64,000 nt of DNA, taken from Deltaproteobacteria bacterium. GTDB taxonomy: Bacteria > Desulfobacterota > Desulfobacteria > Desulfobacterales > Desulfatirhabdiaceae. The translations under genes were made by a program, and so were the position numbers. The notes below the pieces were generated by a model. It did no database searches, was not told the origin of the DNA, and saw only the letters and a list, made by a program, of their open reading frames with translations. The stretch lies in assembly GCA_016219185.1 (NCBI GenBank), contig JACRBZ010000070.1:1-64000 (forward strand), in the 5' to 3' direction. This document shows, in pieces, positions 3,417-42,922 of this stretch. The first letter of the stretch is position 1; every line of letters begins with the position of its first letter.

Positions 3417-5619
3417 GGATAAGGTTCATTTCGCCTGTTTTGACTTGGTTTTTTATCGAGATCCGGATTGTCGTTCCAAGATCGATACGGGTGTCGATTT
3501 CGATAGTTGCTCCGATTATTTTTGCACGATATTCCATGATTTGCAAACCGATTCCATTAAGGCTTTCATTTCTCACAAATCCGCGCCCGTTATCCGTAAT
3601 TGAAAGATTCAACGCGCCACGGCTTTGAAACAGGTCGATACGGATTTCGCTTGCCCTGGCATGTTTCACCGCGTTTGCGGCGGCTTCCTGGGCGATGAAA
3701 TACAAATGGGTGGCTACGGAATTTTCATTTAAACGGATGTGTTCGTCTCCTTCATACCGGCAAGGGATCCCCGAGGTCGTCGCTGTCCTGGCAGCCAGAT
3801 CTTCCAGGGCTGTAAAAAGTCCATGAGAAACCAGATGAACGGGGCACAGCCCTCTGGCAAGTGCTCTGGCCTTTTCAATGGCATCCGCGATCAATACGAC
3901 GATTTTAGCTGAAAGTTGCGTGTGTCTGGAAGTTTCTTCCTCAAGATTGGACTTCAGGACGGTACCCAGTCCCTGAATGCCGATCAGATGCGGACACAGA
4001 TCATCATGGAGATCCTGGCCGATTTTCTGGCGTTCGCTGTCGGCAATGTCCATGATCTGTTTGCGAAGACGTCTGGCATTGGTAATATCTCTTAAAATGA
4101 TCACGCTGCCGGCCAGTTTTCCATTATGATCACGGTAAGTGGCGCCGCTGATGGTGACCGGTACGGTGGCGCCCTGCTTATTGTACCGGCAGGTTTCGGC
4201 AAATATCAGGGACTCTCCCGAAAGAACGGTTTCTATCATCATCCGGGTCTCGGGCCAGTTTTCTTCGGGCACGAAATGGTCCATCCTGCCGCCGATGCAC
4301 TCTTCCAGGGACCACCCGAATACCCGCGTGAACGCCGGGTTGAAAAAGATGACTTCCCCGTTCATGTTGTAGACGACGATGGGGTCAGGGGCCGCATCCA
4401 TCACCGATCGGTAGCGCCCTTCACTTTCACGGAGCGCGTTTTCCGCGTTTTTGCGGTTTATGATTTCATCGTTTAAATCATTGCTATATCGCTCCAACTG
4501 TTCCATGAATTCATTGAAGTAGGTGGCAAGCTGGCCGATTTCATCATTTGAACTGCGCTCCATTCGCAAGGTGAAATTTGTTTCTCGAACCTGGTGAAAA
4601 TGATTCATCAGTTTTTTAAGCGGGGTGGTAATGGAATCGCTGATTTTAAAGGTCAGGGCCAGGATCAGAACCAGGGAGATCACGGCGGTTAACACCATCA
4701 GGGAGCGTATCGTGGCCAGTGGATGGTAAAATTCATCCTCGTAGCTCGAAGAGGCCACAATCCAGTCATATTCGGGGATGTGATTGTATATTACCAGTTT
4801 TTTTCGGGCCTTGGATTCATCGGGATTCTTCCAGGAATAGATGATTTTACCCATTTTGTCCGCCCACATGGTTTCCAGAAACTCGTTGGACATCGATTTG
4901 TCCTCGAGTACATTCACGCCTTGCAGTTTGGGATGGATGATTGCGATTCCCCGATTGTCGATCACAAAGGAATAGCCGGTCTTGCCGAATCGAAATCTTA
5001 AAATGTTTTCTTTAAAATCATCGACATTGACCAGATCCTTGAATTCTCCCCGGTAGGACGAGACCGAGATTATCCAATCCCAGGGTTCAAACCATTTCAT
5101 ATAAAGCGCTTTGGGGCGCGCTTTTGTTTCGCTCGGGTTTTTCCATTGGTATTCGATGTACCCTTCTTTTTGTTGCATCTGGTGCTTGACGAACTCAAAT
5201 TGAGCCACATTCACATCGATCAGATCCTTTTCAGGATGAACGCGTACGGTACCCGAGCTGTCGATGCAGTAAGTATATCCTGATTTGCCGATGGGCTGAC
5301 TGAGAAACAACGCCGCCGCGGCCTGTTTGGCCATGTCTTCGGTCATTTCACCGTTTTTGAATTTGCTAAAGAAATACTGCGCAATGCCAAGATTCTTTTC
5401 GGCAACGGCACGCAAGTGGTTTTTGATGGATACATCGGCGGAGGTTTTTACCATGTTTAAAATGGCTTCAGTTGTGTTTTTCAGCTCACTTTCAATATTG
5501 ATGGTAAGGCTTTGTTGCACAAAGGAATAAATGAAGATATTCCCTAAAGATAGCGAAACCGTGAACGCGAGGGAGTAATTCAACAATAGTTTATAGCGGA
5601 TAGCAATGTTTCTGAACAT
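3409..5619 (-). CDS. Membrane sensor histidine kinase with tandem Cache, HAMP and PAS domains (NarX/DegS-type core)
   Basis: A 736-residue inner-membrane kinase expected to phosphorylate the NarL-type regulator encoded next. Order: N-terminal transmembrane helix (about 10-32), two similar periplasmic Cache modules (GKSGYTYCID...VHP and GKTGYSFVID...IHP), second transmembrane helix near 310-330, HAMP, PAS (about 415-530), HisKA_3 with His538 in GQDLHDD, and HATPase_c with the NAVKHA and DNGRGF boxes. The frame could start at TTG 5658, but no ribosome site supports that; ATG 5619 gives the usual short tail before the first helix. The two Cache modules look like an internal duplication, suggesting extracellular small-molecule sensing. 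The ligand cannot be inferred. Confidence 0.92.
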   Translation of the reverse strand: MFRNIAIRYKLLLNYSLAFTVSLSLGNIFIYSFVQQSLTINIESELKNTTEAILNMVKTSADVSIKNHLRAVAEKNLGIAQYFFSKFKNGEMTEDMAKQAAAALFLSQPIGKSGYTYCIDSSGTVRVHPEKDLIDVNVAQFEFVKHQMQQKEGYIEYQWKNPSETKARPKALYMKWFEPWDWIISVSSYRGEFKDLVNVDDFKENILRFRFGKTGYSFVIDNRGIAIIHPKLQGVNVLEDKSMSNEFLETMWADKMGKIIYSWKNPDESKARKKLVIYNHIPEYDWIVASSSYEDEFYHPLATIRSLMVLTAVISLVLILALTFKISDSITTPLKKLMNHFHQVRETNFTLRMERSSNDEIGQLATYFNEFMEQLERYSNDLNDEIINRKNAENALRESEGRYRSVMDAAPDPIVVYNMNGEVIFFNPAFTRVFGWSLEECIGGRMDHFVPEENWPETRMMIETVLSGESLIFAETCRYNKQGATVPVTISGATYRDHNGKLAGSVIILRDITNARRLRKQIMDIADSERQKIGQDLHDDLCPHLIGIQGLGTVLKSNLEEETSRHTQLSAKIVVLIADAIEKARALARGLCPVHLVSHGLFTALEDLAARTATTSGIPCRYEGDEHIRLNENSVATHLYFIAQEAAANAVKHARASEIRIDLFQSRGALNLSITDNGRGFVRNESLNGIGLQIMEYRAKIIGATIEIDTRIDLGTTIRISIKNQVKTGEMNLIHA

Positions 5620-5958: not shown

Positions 5959-6347
5959 TTGTTGCAGACACTTCGGCTTGGATCGATTATTTGCGAGGTG
6001 TGGATGCCCCTCACACGAATGCGCTTGATGATGAACTTCAAAATAATCGAATCATCGCGGGTGACTTGATTATTGCCGAATTTTTACAGGGCTTTAGAAA
6101 TGAAAAGCACTACTTGGAAGCAAAAAACATTATGGATGCCTTGGAGTATCGGGATTTTGTTGGAAGAGATATTGCTTTAAAAGCAGCACAAAATTTTCGA
6201 AGATTAAGAACAAAAGGAATAACAGTCAGAAAGACAATTGATGTCATCATCGCGACATTTTGCATTGAAAATAATTTCCCGTTAATTCATAACGACAGAG
6301 ACTTTGATCCAATGGAGCGCTATTTGGGGCTTAGAATAAGGAAATAA
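5955..6347 (+). CDS. vapC: VapC-type toxin, PIN-domain ribonuclease
   Basis: A 130-residue Mg-dependent endoribonuclease; family members cleave tRNA or rRNA to arrest growth. The PIN acidic residues are all present: Asp5 (VADTS), Glu42 (IAEFLQG), Asp96 (TIDVIIA) and Asp114/Asp116 (HNDRDFD), so the enzyme looks intact. Length is normal for the family. It starts in the ATGA overlap with vapB. Its stop codon is only four bases before the TTG start of a response regulator, so the module sits tightly against the next operon. Actual RNA target unknown. Confidence 0.93.
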   Translation: MIVADTSAWIDYLRGVDAPHTNALDDELQNNRIIAGDLIIAEFLQGFRNEKHYLEAKNIMDALEYRDFVGRDIALKAAQNFRRLRTKGITVRKTIDVIIATFCIENNFPLIHNDRDFDPMERYLGLRIRK

Positions 6348-20702: not shown

Positions 20703-22406
20703 CTAAAAGAGAAAATAACGCTGGGTCATGGGCAGGGAGATGGCCGGCTCACAGACCAGCAGCACTCCGTCGGCCCGTACCTGATAGGTCTCGGGATCCA
20801 CCTCGATCCTCGGCATGGCGTCATTGTGGATCATATCGGTTTTGCCGATTGCTCTGGTACCGGATACCGCGATCAGCGGTTTGACGAGCCCAAGACCCGT
20901 GACGGCCGGATTATCGAGCGCTGCCGACGAGACAAAGGTGACCGAGGATTTAAGCGCCCGGCCGAAAGCGCCGAACATCGGCCGGTAATGGACCGGCTGC
21001 GGCGTGGGGATGGAGGCGTTCGGATCACCCATGGCCGCGGCGGCGATAACGCCACCTTTGATGATAAGCGCGGGTTTTACGCCGAAAAAAGCCGGATTCC
21101 AGAGAATTAAATCGGCAAGTTTTCCCTTTTCCACCGAGCCCACGATCCGGGCGATGCCATGGGTGATGGCCGGGTTGATGGTGTATTTGGCAATATAGCG
21201 CTTTATCCGGAAATTATCGTTTCGGCCCGAGTCCTGCGGCAGGCTGCCGCGTTGCAGTTTCATTTTGTGGGCCGTCTGCCAGGTGCGGATAATCACCTCT
21301 CCCACACGGCCCATGGCCTGGGAGTCTGAGGACATCATCGAAAAGGCGCCAAGGTCGTGAAGGATATCCTCGGCTGCGATGGTCTCCCGCCGGATGCGTG
21401 ATTCGGCAAAAGCGATATCCTCGGCAATTGCCGGATCAAGGTGATGGCAGACCATCAGCATGTCGAGATGCTCGTCGATGGTGTTCACCGTGTAGGGCAT
21501 GGTGGGATTGGTGGAGGACGGCAGGACGTTTGGTTGCTCCACCGCCCTGATAATGTCCGGGGAATGGCCGCCGCCCGCCCCTTCGGTGTGGAAGGTGTGA
21601 ATGGTGCGGCCCTTGAAGGCGGCGATCGTGGTTTCAACAAAGCCGGATTCATTTAAGGTGTCGGTATGGATCGCCACCTGCACGTCCATCTCATCGGCCA
21701 CGGCAAGGCAATTGTCGATTGCGGCCGGAGTGGTGCCCCAGTCCTCATGAAGCTTCAGGCCCATGGCCCCGGCCCGGACCTGTTCACGCAGCGGCTCGGG
21801 CCTGCTGACATTACCCTTGCCCATAAAGCCCAGATTCATCGGGAAGGCGTCCGCCGCTTCCAGCATCCGGGCAAGATGCCAGGGGCCCGGGGTGCAGGTT
21901 GTGGCAAAGGTTCCGGTGGCAGGGCCCGTGCCGCCGCCGAGCATGGTGGTGATGCCGGCGGCCAGGGCCTCGTCGATCTGCTGCGGGCAAATAAAGTGAA
22001 TATGGGAATCAATGCCGCCTGCGGTGACGATCTTTCCTTCCCCTGCGATAATCTCGGTGGCGGCACCGATCGGGATGGTCACACCCGGCTGGATGTCGGG
22101 ATTGCCCGCCTTGCCGATGGCAAGGATGAGGCCGTCCTTGATCCCGATATCGGCCTTGACAATGCCCCAATGGTCGATAATGACCGCATTGGTAATGACC
22201 GTATCGGCAACTTCGGCGGCACAAAGCTGACCCTGGCCCATACCGTCGCGAATGACCTTGCCGCCGCCGAATTTCACCTCTTCACCGTAAATGGTGAAAT
22301 CTTTTTCAATTTCTATAAAGAGATCCGTATCGGCAAGCCGCATCCGGTCGCCCTGGGTAGGGCCGAACATCTCTGCATAGGCCTGGCGGGAAATTTGTGT
22401 GCTCAT
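20703..22406 (-). CDS. ureC: Urease alpha subunit, catalytic
   Basis: Catalyses urea + H2O to ammonia and carbamate at a dinickel site. The 567-residue length is standard. Nickel ligands and catalytic residues are visible: HIH in [11 protein letters not shown], the carbamylated Lys in GLKLHEDWG (about 217), His in [11 protein letters not shown], His in [14 protein letters not shown], the flap MVCHHLD with the catalytic His (about 320), and the Asp in [16 protein letters not shown] sits at the end of ureB, and the ATG overlaps the ureB stop (ATGA). All key residues are intact. Confidence 0.98.
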
Positions 22407-39718: not shown

Positions 39719-40078
39719 GTGGTGAATATGGCTTATGCAATGGGTGCGGGTGGGGCTGCCAGTCCTGGGTCAGCCGGGGGATTGGCATCATTTATACCGC
39801 TGGTCCTGATGTTTGTCATTTTTTATTTTCTGCTCATCCGGCCTCAGCAGAAAAAGACCAAGGAACATCGGGACATGGTCGCCGGGATCAAAAAAGGCGA
39901 CCGGATCATCACCAGCGGCGGCATTCATGGCCAGGTAACGTCAGTGGATGACACCACCCTTACCGTTGAAATATCGGATAAGGTTCGGGTTAAGCTGAAC
40001 CGGGCCAATGTTGCCGGAATGGTTCAGACCCAGACGCAACCGCCCAAAAAAGCAGTCGAACCCGAAAAATCCAAATAA
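39719..40078 (+). CDS. yajC: Preprotein translocase accessory subunit YajC
   Basis: A 119-residue single-span membrane protein that forms a complex with SecDF. After a Gly/Ala-rich lead comes a membrane helix (LASFIPLVLMFVIFYFLLI, about 25-42), then RPQQKKTKEHRDMV, the family motif, and KKGDRIITSGGIHGQV. The start is GTG 39719, seven bases after GGAGG; a second GTG and an ATG follow in frame. Standard gene order yajC-secD-secF, but here with a repeat element in between. The 263-base gap upstream to purB holds no gene. Confidence 0.95.
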   Translation: MVNMAYAMGAGGAASPGSAGGLASFIPLVLMFVIFYFLLIRPQQKKTKEHRDMVAGIKKGDRIITSGGIHGQVTSVDDTTLTVEISDKVRVKLNRANVAGMVQTQTQPPKKAVEPEKSK

Positions 40079-40137
40079 CCCTTCAACAGTGAACTACATT
40101 ACCGGTAACGGTCTGATTTGATGGCCTTGTATAATTG

Positions 40138-40264
40138 GGATGACTTTGAAAAAAGCTCCGGATGCGAGGCGCGCAAATCCTGTCAGTGAGGTGTACTTTT
40201 GGGTACGCCGCAATGACGAAGGATACCGCGCAACGAAGCAGATGGACTTTTTACGAAGTCATCC
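40138..40264. repeat. 127-bp element with terminal inverted repeats between yajC and secD
   Basis: The ends GGATGACTTTGAAAAA (40138-) and TTTTTACGAAGTCATCC (-40264) are near-perfect inverted repeats (mismatches at two positions). Inside is a second hairpin, GGTGTAC and GTACGCC around TTTTGG (about 40190-40208), and the sequence is G+C-rich with several GCG/CGC. It resembles intergenic REP- or MITE-like elements; I believe related sequences occur in Desulfobacterales genomes, but this could not be checked. It has no coding capacity. Confidence 0.55.
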
Positions 40265-40291
40265 GGTTTGATCAGTGAAAGGATTCGATCA

Positions 40292-41869
40292 TTGAAGAAT
40301 ATTTCATGGAAACTGGCAGCCAGCGTACTGGTCATACTGGCTGCTATTGTTTACACCGTACCCACATTCAAGTCCGAGATCTGGCCGTATAAGAAAATCA
40401 ACCTGGGCCTGGATCTTCAGGGCGGCATGCACCTTGTCCTGGAAGTTCAGACCGAAAAGGCCGTGGAAAGTACCATCGAGCGGCTGGCCCAGGATATGCG
40501 CATTGCCTTAAAAAAAGAACAGATTCGGGCAACGGGCCTGGACCAGATTCAAGGCTCGAAAATATCCGTCCGGATCGAGGGAAAGGATCAAATCGATAAA
40601 TTCGATAAAATCCTTAATGATTCTTTTAAAGATCTCAGAATTCAATCCCGCAATATCGATAACGACGTCTTATCCGTATCGCTGGATCTGCCGGACAAGG
40701 AAACGATCCGGATCAAAAAAATGGCCGTGGAACAAGCCCTTGAGACCATCCGAAACCGAATCGATCAATTCGGGGTCAGCGAGCCCGACATTCGTCTCGA
40801 GGGAGAAAAACGACTGCTCATTCAGCTTCCCGGGGTCAAAGACACGCAGCGTGCCAAGGACCTGATCGGTAAAACCGCGCTCCTGGAGTTTAAGCTCCTG
40901 GATGAGAACCATGATGTGGATGCTGCGGTCAAGGGCGCGGTGCCTCCGGGATCGGAAGTACTCTATGAAGTCCGGGAAGATCCTCAGACCCGAAGATCCA
41001 TCAAAACGCCTTATCTGTTGATGAAGCGCGCGATATTGACCGGATCGTATCTGACAGACGCCAAGGTTCAGATCGATTCTCAGTATAATGAACCCTATGT
41101 ATCGATCAAATTCGACAAAAAAGGCGCCCAGCTCTTTGAAAAAATAACCGAAGAAAACGTTAAAAAACGTCTGGCCATTGTTCTGGATCAAAAAGTGTAT
41201 TCCGCGCCCGTGATTCAGGAAAAAATAGGCGGCGGCGAGGCCCGGATTACCGGCCGCTTTTCTCCCGAGGAAGCCCGTGATCTGGCCATTGTCCTTCGCG
41301 CCGGGGCCTTGCCCGCTCCTGTGAAAATTCTTGAGGAACGCACTGTCGGACCTTCCCTGGGAACGGACTCCATCAATAAAGGCTTATTGGCCGGGCTTGT
41401 CGGCGGGATTCTTGTCATTTTGTTCATGGCTGTTTACTATAAAGGCTCGGGTTTAATTGCCGATATCGCCCTGCTGTTTAATATTGTCATGATTGCCGGC
41501 GGTCTTGCAGCGTTTCAGGCAACGCTGACCATGCCGGGTATTGCCGGCATTGTCCTGACCATTGGGATGGCTGTTGATGCCAACGTGCTGATATTTGAAC
41601 GGATTCGCGAAGAGCTCAGACTGGGCAAACCCTTGCGCGCCGCGGTTGACGCGGGTTTTCACATGGCGTCCTGGACGATTCTGGATGCCAATATGACCAC
41701 GCTGATCGCCGCCCTGGTGCTTTTTCAGTTCGGCACGGGACCGGTCAAGGGATTTGCCGTGACGCTCAGCCTGGGGGTTGTTTCCAGTGTATTTACAGCG
41801 CTGGTATTGACCCGTGTCATCTTCGATTTTTTAATTGTCCAGCGAAAAATTAAACACTTGAGTATCTAA
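40292..41869 (+). CDS. secD: Protein translocase subunit SecD
   Basis: A 525-residue inner-membrane protein that uses the proton gradient to pull exported proteins through SecYEG. A helix near 8-27 is followed by the DLQGGMHLVLEV motif, a long periplasmic region, then five helices near the C-terminus with the SSD-type GIAGIVLTIGMAVDANVLIFERIREELRLG signature and its conserved Asp. TTG 40292 is preferred (GAAAGG eight bases upstream, giving MKNISWKLAASV, the usual SecD start); the frame is open to TTG 40268. Confidence 0.95.
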   Translation: MKNISWKLAASVLVILAAIVYTVPTFKSEIWPYKKINLGLDLQGGMHLVLEVQTEKAVESTIERLAQDMRIALKKEQIRATGLDQIQGSKISVRIEGKDQIDKFDKILNDSFKDLRIQSRNIDNDVLSVSLDLPDKETIRIKKMAVEQALETIRNRIDQFGVSEPDIRLEGEKRLLIQLPGVKDTQRAKDLIGKTALLEFKLLDENHDVDAAVKGAVPPGSEVLYEVREDPQTRRSIKTPYLLMKRAILTGSYLTDAKVQIDSQYNEPYVSIKFDKKGAQLFEKITEENVKKRLAIVLDQKVYSAPVIQEKIGGGEARITGRFSPEEARDLAIVLRAGALPAPVKILEERTVGPSLGTDSINKGLLAGLVGGILVILFMAVYYKGSGLIADIALLFNIVMIAGGLAAFQATLTMPGIAGIVLTIGMAVDANVLIFERIREELRLGKPLRAAVDAGFHMASWTILDANMTTLIAALVLFQFGTGPVKGFAVTLSLGVVSSVFTALVLTRVIFDFLIVQRKIKHLSI

Positions 41870-41881
41870 AAGGACGTTTTC

Positions 41882-42922
41882 ATGGAGTTTATCAAACCCA
41901 ATATTAACGTTGATTTTGTCGGCAAACGAAAAATCGCCTACAGTGTTTCCCTTGGGCTGATCCTGCTCAGCATCGTCAGCCTCATTTATCATGGCGGCCC
42001 GAAATATGGCATTGATTTTGCCGGCGGAACGGTCATTCAAATCAAATTTCCGGCTCCGGTCGACATCGGCAATATTAAATCCGGGCTGGGTGGTGTCGGG
42101 CTGGAAAATACGACCATTCAGACCTTTGGAGATCCTAAAGATAATGAATTCCTGATCCGAACGGAAATCCCGCTTAAAACGGATGATAATTTTTCCCAGC
42201 AGATCAAGGACGCCGTGCAGAAAACCACCGGCAGCGAGCCTGATATTCGCCGAATCGAAATGGTTGGACCTCAGGTGGGAAAGGATCTTCAGGAAAAGGC
42301 ATTGTTCGCCATTTATTATTCCATGCTGTTTATTGCCATATATATCTCCGGACGGTTTGAATTCAAATGGGTTGCCTGTGCCACAATTGCCGGCGTGCTC
42401 ATGGGGGGGATCTATCTGCTGAGCAAGTTAAGCATCAGCATGGCCATTTTAACCGCGCTGGCGCTGATCATTACGCTGGTGCTGTTCTGGATTCTGAATC
42501 TGAAATACGCCATGGGTGCAATCGTTGCACTGATCCACGATGTCGTCATTACCGTGGGCTGCTTTTCGCTTTTGGGAAAAGAGTTTTCCCTCCCCATCAT
42601 TGCAGCGGTGCTTTCCATCATGGGGTATTCCCTGAATGATACGATTATTGTTTACGACCGTATTCGGGAAAATCTGCGCAAACATCCCAAAAAACCGCTG
42701 GGTGAGAACATCAACCGAAGTGTGAATGAAACCCTCAGCCGAACGATATTGACATCCGGGATCACGCTGGTGGCAGTACTATCCCTGTTTATTTTAGGCG
42801 GCGGAACTATCCAGGATTTTGCGCTTGCCATGCTTGTGGGTATTGTCGTGGGAACTTATTCCTCTGTTTATGTGGCCAGCCCCATCCTTCTGGCCTGGCA
42901 GGATGTCGGTAAAAAGAAGTGA
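41882..42922 (+). CDS. secF: Protein translocase subunit SecF
   Basis: A 346-residue partner of SecD with six membrane helices. Recognisable blocks: YGIDFAGGTVIQIKF near residue 45, EMVGPQVGKDLQEKAL, and MGAIVALIHDVVITVGCFSLLGKEFSLPIIAAVLSIMGYSLNDTIIVYDRIREN, the SecF core. AGGACG precedes ATG 41882, 12 bases after secD. Confidence 0.97.
   Translation: MEFIKPNINVDFVGKRKIAYSVSLGLILLSIVSLIYHGGPKYGIDFAGGTVIQIKFPAPVDIGNIKSGLGGVGLENTTIQTFGDPKDNEFLIRTEIPLKTDDNFSQQIKDAVQKTTGSEPDIRRIEMVGPQVGKDLQEKALFAIYYSMLFIAIYISGRFEFKWVACATIAGVLMGGIYLLSKLSISMAILTALALIITLVLFWILNLKYAMGAIVALIHDVVITVGCFSLLGKEFSLPIIAAVLSIMGYSLNDTIIVYDRIRENLRKHPKKPLGENINRSVNETLSRTILTSGITLVAVLSLFILGGGTIQDFALAMLVGIVVGTYSSVYVASPILLAWQDVGKKK

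Follow-up and report, generated by a model that had tools for sequence, protein, structure and literature searches.

A MITE-like inverted-repeat element in the yajC-secD spacer of a Desulfobacterales genome and the dispersed family to which it belongs

The spacer between yajC and secD, two genes that are normally close together in one operon, raises the question how a palindromic sequence came to lie between them and whether it matters for their expression. The initial annotation of the window (the whole stretch of 64,000 nucleotides analysed here, contig C49:1-64000 of a genome of 6.38 Mb named G000) had described a 127-bp inverted-repeat element, had suspected a non-coding mobile or REP-like family and had suggested that it could fold in the mRNA and alter SecD expression relative to YajC. 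According to the present analysis the element is very probably a non-autonomous inverted-repeat MITE, represented in the window by an old and slightly damaged copy. Its family shows what is typical of MITEs, i.e. short non-coding units with terminal inverted repeats, target duplications of fixed length, and dispersed copies together with empty sites.

The ends of the element, for which about 16 bp of inverted repeat had been claimed, are indeed complementary over 18 nt at 89% (40138-40155 and 40247-40264) and form the only inverted repeat found within 39900-40500. For 40138-40264 a near full-length RNA hairpin of -63.4 kcal/mol is predicted, compared with -36.1 +/- 3.2 for shuffled sequences (z -8.6; none of 200 dinucleotide shuffles was equally good), which supports the proposed folding in the mRNA, and the second hairpin expected inside the element is found at the apex of this fold. 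The palindrome thus stands but its boundaries do not. Similarity among the copies reaches to the left of 40138, and alignment with other copies and their flanks places the left end at 40120 and the right end at 40263. As the complete family unit has about 152 bp, 40138-40264 comprises the inner core only; bases 40138 and 40264 are flanking and their pairing is due to chance. Inside the element there are no ORFs of at least 80 codons, and neither a promoter-like nor a terminator-like site (stem plus T-run) was found in 39950-40400. Rfam gave no match at the element at the gathering score and a chance match only (E 4.2) with a relaxed threshold. Elsewhere in the window the Rfam entry 5_ureB_sRNA (RF02514) matches 21970-22251 on the + strand with 110.8 bits, antisense to the urease alpha-subunit gene (20703-22406, - strand); this probably reflects conservation of the coding sequence on the opposite strand and is not evidence of an antisense RNA.

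Table 1. Coordinates of the element, its parts and the neighbouring genes in the window
Feature	Position	Strand	Remarks
yajC	39719-40078	+	upstream gene, same strand
Presumed target duplication, left half	40114-40119	+	TGATTT, 6 bp, decayed; compared with empty site GTCTAGTTTGATCAGTG of G005
Complete element, current form	40120-40263	+	144 bp, with 8-bp deletion; aligned to some 40 copies from the own genome and to congeners
Outer left inverted repeat, remnant	40120-40138	+	GATGGCCTTGTA, followed by the 8-bp deletion; family consensus GATGNNNTCGTAAAAAGTC
Inner left inverted repeat	40139-40157	+	125-bp core begins here; partner is the right end
Apical hairpin	40190-40209	+	GGTGTAC-TTTTGG-GTACGCC; fold and pair analysis
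Right inverted repeat	40245-40263	+	GACTTTTTACGAAGTCATC; comparison with family ends
Presumed target duplication, right half	40264-40269	+	CGGTTT, decayed; compared with empty site GTCTAGTTTGATCAGTG of G005
secD	40268-41869 (ORF)	+	conserved TTG start probably at 40292; ORF call and comparison with relatives
secD ribosome-binding site	40277-40284	+	GAAAGGAT; outside the hairpin
secF	41882-42922		after secD, co-directional with yajC and secD

The full unit of the family consists of GATGAACTCGTAAAAAGTCAAAATTGG followed by a 125-bp core (GATGGCAAAGTAAAAAGTTC ... GGACTTTTTACGAAGCCATC) and has 152 bp in total. The core is a long hairpin with the ends GAYGRC...GYCRTC. Normally the 27-bp left extension is present and carries a second left inverted repeat, and the units have GATGNNNTCGTAAAAAGTC as terminal inverted repeat on both sides (the ends bounding family units are written as GATGNNNTCGYAAAAAGTC). 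At least 40 copies with 73-100% identity occur in the own genome. One of them (L109, G000:C49:68541-68679) lies on the same contig about 4.5 kb past the end of the window. In several copies of this genome (L006, L008, L010, L015, L018, L019, L024, L025 and L030) a short GC-rich module, ACCGGCGTTCCGCCTGC or GCACCGGAGCTNTTGGCGACAA, is swapped into the hairpin at varying places. Matches at the DNA level were obtained in 28 of 57 relatives. With a covariance model derived from 28 copies, 103 of the 297 phylum genomes sampled gave matches (E<=1e-5), the strong ones being mostly full length (positions 1-151). Exact-pattern matches confirmed by the model come, among others, from Desulfobacteraceae, Syntrophaceae/Syntrophales, Desulfobulbaceae and several MAGs labelled Nitrospirae; misbinning of MAGs may play a part here. 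The core was also seen in 13 stretches of viral contigs (L489-L501, IMG/VR), in some of them repeatedly and again confirmed by the covariance model; such contigs may be a means of transfer between hosts, or may be host DNA wrongly classed as viral. The end-richest congener, G003 (98% complete), contains 419 ends with at most one mismatch, compared with 0 for a reversed control pattern, and half of this number corresponds to roughly 200 copies. Many contigs of G003 start in or next to an element, among them C20, C93, C123, C126, C132, C141, C144, C146 and C147. The repeat breaks short-read assemblies and therefore copy numbers from drafts are probably underestimates.

The suspected non-coding mobile family is borne out by the numerous copies in the same order, by target-site duplications and by empty sites. 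Among 157 distinct end-bounded units of 145-170 bp, collected from all fetched loci, 79 have exact direct duplications of 6 or 7 bp at their ends, compared with a mean of 1.8 and a maximum of 7 in randomly paired flanks (2000 shuffles). The duplicated target follows the roughly palindromic preference A-A-N-N-T-T. The two flanks of copies with duplications were joined and compared with congener genomes. Two copies have contiguous empty sites with a single copy of the target, C101:44097 in G001 and C108:1841 in G005. For C101:56797 the empty site in G001 is length-matched, and for C15:20107 the one in G006 agrees less exactly and has extra bases. The 125-bp core can also stand alone with its own duplication, namely AAAAGT at C30:14266 and ATTCTT in a Nitrospirota MAG. 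This means that the right end is usable with either of the two left ends, which are 27 bp apart. Additionally, the same ends enclose unrelated interiors in the G003 yajC-secD unit, in the L213 unit at 5974 and in the L402 unit at 4438.

The copies are not distributed evenly with respect to genes. At most 60 bp separate 53 of 84 duplication-flanked copies (63%) from the 3' end of an ORF, compared with 15% of random placements (ORFs of at least 120 codons; the gene calls are simple ORF calls). In 13 cases the stop codon spans the junction (T/GA) and in 10 it is a TAA inside the element end. The orientation relative to transcription is mixed, with the right end facing the gene stop in 21 versus 8 tandem cases, and the window copy is oriented in the less frequent way. 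Besides this placement the hairpin itself is conserved. In 28 copies from several families standard pairs occupy 95.7% of the cells and both-sided changes occur in 19 of 35 pairs (61 cells); the controls gave 16.4 +/- 3.9 with shuffled 3' letters and at most 13 with slid partners. Since both-sided changes are far above these controls, the fold has been kept over the sampled families. Its retention may be due to transposase recognition of the ends, to selection on the RNA or to template-switching correction of imperfect palindromes. The covariation exceeds the expectation for plain MITE decay, so that a function or palindrome correction may be involved. One could regard the element primarily as a host-selected RNA or DNA structure for mRNA processing or stability at gene 3' ends, which is spread by transposition and in the window tunes SecD versus YajC. 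The covarying pairs, the position behind genes and the hairpins of other kinds that are found in the same spacer of several relatives are all in line with such a role; the latter mean at the same time that a yajC-secD hairpin is neither new nor special to the source genome. However, occupancy of sites varies between congeners, the interiors within the same ends can be unrelated, the orientation to transcription is mixed and template-switching correction also yields paired changes, so that we regard this explanation as quite improbable.

The preferred reading of a non-autonomous MITE calls for a transposase that is encoded elsewhere. The initial annotation had proposed to look for one with the same ends; it was not found among the loci of four transposase families or within the roughly 3.7 Mb of sequence scanned. 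None of the examined Y1_Tnp loci is flanked by element ends, the checked DDE_Tnp_1, ISNCY_1 and ISNCY_2 loci are not bounded by them either, and no kb-scale unit with element ends and its own transposase gene is present in the roughly 3.7 Mb. BLAST against plasmids and phages gave no match to the element. Several candidates for a partner or parent were rejected. The ISNCY_1 elements have their own ends of the AGTGTCTGACCG type. The 1052-bp unit L360 17651-18703 (G156), with an exact AATGTT duplication, is a normal family copy, interrupted by a transposase gene that is decayed, IS481-like by eye and has a separate 7-bp duplication, ATGGCTA. A 1.6-kb pair in G003 is without transposase and has other small genes between separate elements. 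The 1755-bp unit L402 4438-6193 (Desulfobacterales MAG CG23) is formed by two separate elements, both with the duplication AATCTT, on either side of rubrerythrin-type oxidative-stress genes, and its composite-transposon-like layout may be a coincidence of target preference. ISDol1 may be a possible parent. We infer that the enzyme acts in trans and recognises only the ends, which matches the occurrence of several interiors that share them. A wider version of this reading, in which the family extends across Desulfobacterota and seemingly into viral contigs and some Nitrospirota MAGs, its structure is selected, and it is moved in trans by a host transposase without the same ends, in a RAYT-like partnership with a different, duplication-making enzyme, appears doubtful.

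That the element is a REP/BIME-type palindrome which owes its spread to a RAYT (Y1) transposase is highly unlikely and largely refuted. The element is admittedly multi-copy, palindromic and intergenic, and the own genome has five Y1_Tnp matches, of which four exceed the cut-off. However, REPs are palindromes of 20-40 bp with a GTAG or CGTC head (PMC3733652), whereas the unit here has 125-152 bp, GATG ends and target duplications of 6-7 bp. Moreover, G003 with its 419 ends has 0 Y1_Tnp matches. Because of these duplications and of the greatest abundance in a genome without any Y1/RAYT transposase the family has to be called MITE-like, and the earlier label "REP-like" is abandoned.

How, then, did the element reach its place in front of secD? 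With it the yajC-secD spacer measures 189 bp, versus 66 bp in G005, the closest congener with an empty site. A long gap between these genes is not unusual in the order, since spacers of between 40 and 328 bp, with a median of 116 bp, occur in 21 relatives. The G005 spacer reads ...GTCTAGTTTGATCAGTGAAAGG without the element and the window ...GTCTGATTT[element]CGGTTTGATCAGTGAAAGG; the comparison of this empty site with the window flanks suggests TAGTTT as the probable original target, which has since decayed (the presumed halves of the duplication match at 4 of 6 positions). A multi-copy sequence that is missing from the G005 spacer excludes the outcome which the initial annotation had set against its own proposal, namely a single-copy and ordinarily conserved spacer. 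At the same spot G003 and G004 contain a different unit of 101 bp, whose ends are of the same kind and whose AAGTTT duplication is clean, G006 retains one end-like fragment, and in G002 the stop codon of yajC is formed by an element end. From this differing occupancy it follows that the yajC-secD site was hit repeatedly. An ordinary intrinsic terminator or attenuator of this spacer, which the strong hairpin and the frequent hairpins of relatives might suggest, is refuted as origin of the sequence and has practically no probability, as no stem with T-run was found in 39950-40400 and the sequence recurs at no fewer than 40 unrelated places and is lacking in the G005 spacer.

For the MITE the following course of events would fit. 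A trans-acting transposase would recognise the 19-bp ends and cut with a stagger of 6 bp, sometimes 7 bp, at AT-rich and roughly palindromic targets, where the element would then be inserted. The copies that survive would be mostly those just behind genes, partly because the ends can supply stop codons (T/GA at the junction, TAA 10 bp inside). In an ancestor of the source organism the window copy would have entered the TAGTTT target in front of secD. Transcription would then produce a long intercistronic hairpin that leaves the ribosome-binding site of secD free. The putative effect on SecD expression is plausible; that the hairpin might set the YajC:SecD ratio, as a signal for nucleases or for stability, is speculative.

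Present in a third of the phylum genomes sampled, the family would rank among the most widely distributed bacterial MITE families, and it has kept both its ends and a covarying fold. Genes receive stop codons and intercistronic hairpins from it, and it breaks draft assemblies. As its ends are defined and its targets are of the form AANNTT, the missing transposase can be searched for, and the odd yajC-secD spacer is explained as an insertion and not as regulatory design.

In a limited search of the open literature neither a name for this family nor a named MITE of the Desulfobacterales was found. Unnamed multicopy intergenic inverted-repeat families are described for the deltaproteobacterium Geobacter metallireducens (PMC2700814), and the one palindrome compared, GRCGTAGCGCTGCTACGCC, is different. 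Chunjie of the related bacterium Geobacter uraniireducens (178-235 bp) is a MITE inserted inside an operon (PMC10969869) and in this respect resembles the window copy by description. RUP of Streptococcus pneumoniae is a 107-bp MITE with about 100 copies, presumably moved in trans by an IS630-type transposase (PMC2229807). It has a partner IS with matching ends, whereas none was found for the family described here, and the targets here are not TA. The ERIC or IRU sequences of enterobacteria are 127-bp intergenic hairpins which are co-transcribed and for which an orientation-dependent effect on mRNA stability was reported (PMC2229807). Their length of 127 bp is shared only by coincidence of the first boundaries, as the true unit has 152 or 125 bp, and with TA termini and a TIR of 7 bp (PMC2229807) they are set apart by description from a family with AANNTT duplications. 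The Correia or NEMIS elements of Neisseria, with forms of about 107 and 155 bp, TIRs of about 24 bp and target duplications, are non-coding, form a hairpin over the whole unit and are co-transcribed with their neighbours (PMC2229807, PMC10969869). The present family resembles them in having a long and a short form and a hairpin over the whole length, but differs in its 6-7-bp AANNTT duplications (TA at the termini in Correia, PMC2229807), in its GATGNNNTCGTAAAAAGTC ends and in its unrelated sequence. Cutting by RNase III is a known feature of Correia elements, and by analogy our best guess for the yajC-secD mRNA would be an RNase-sensitive intercistronic hairpin of the same kind.
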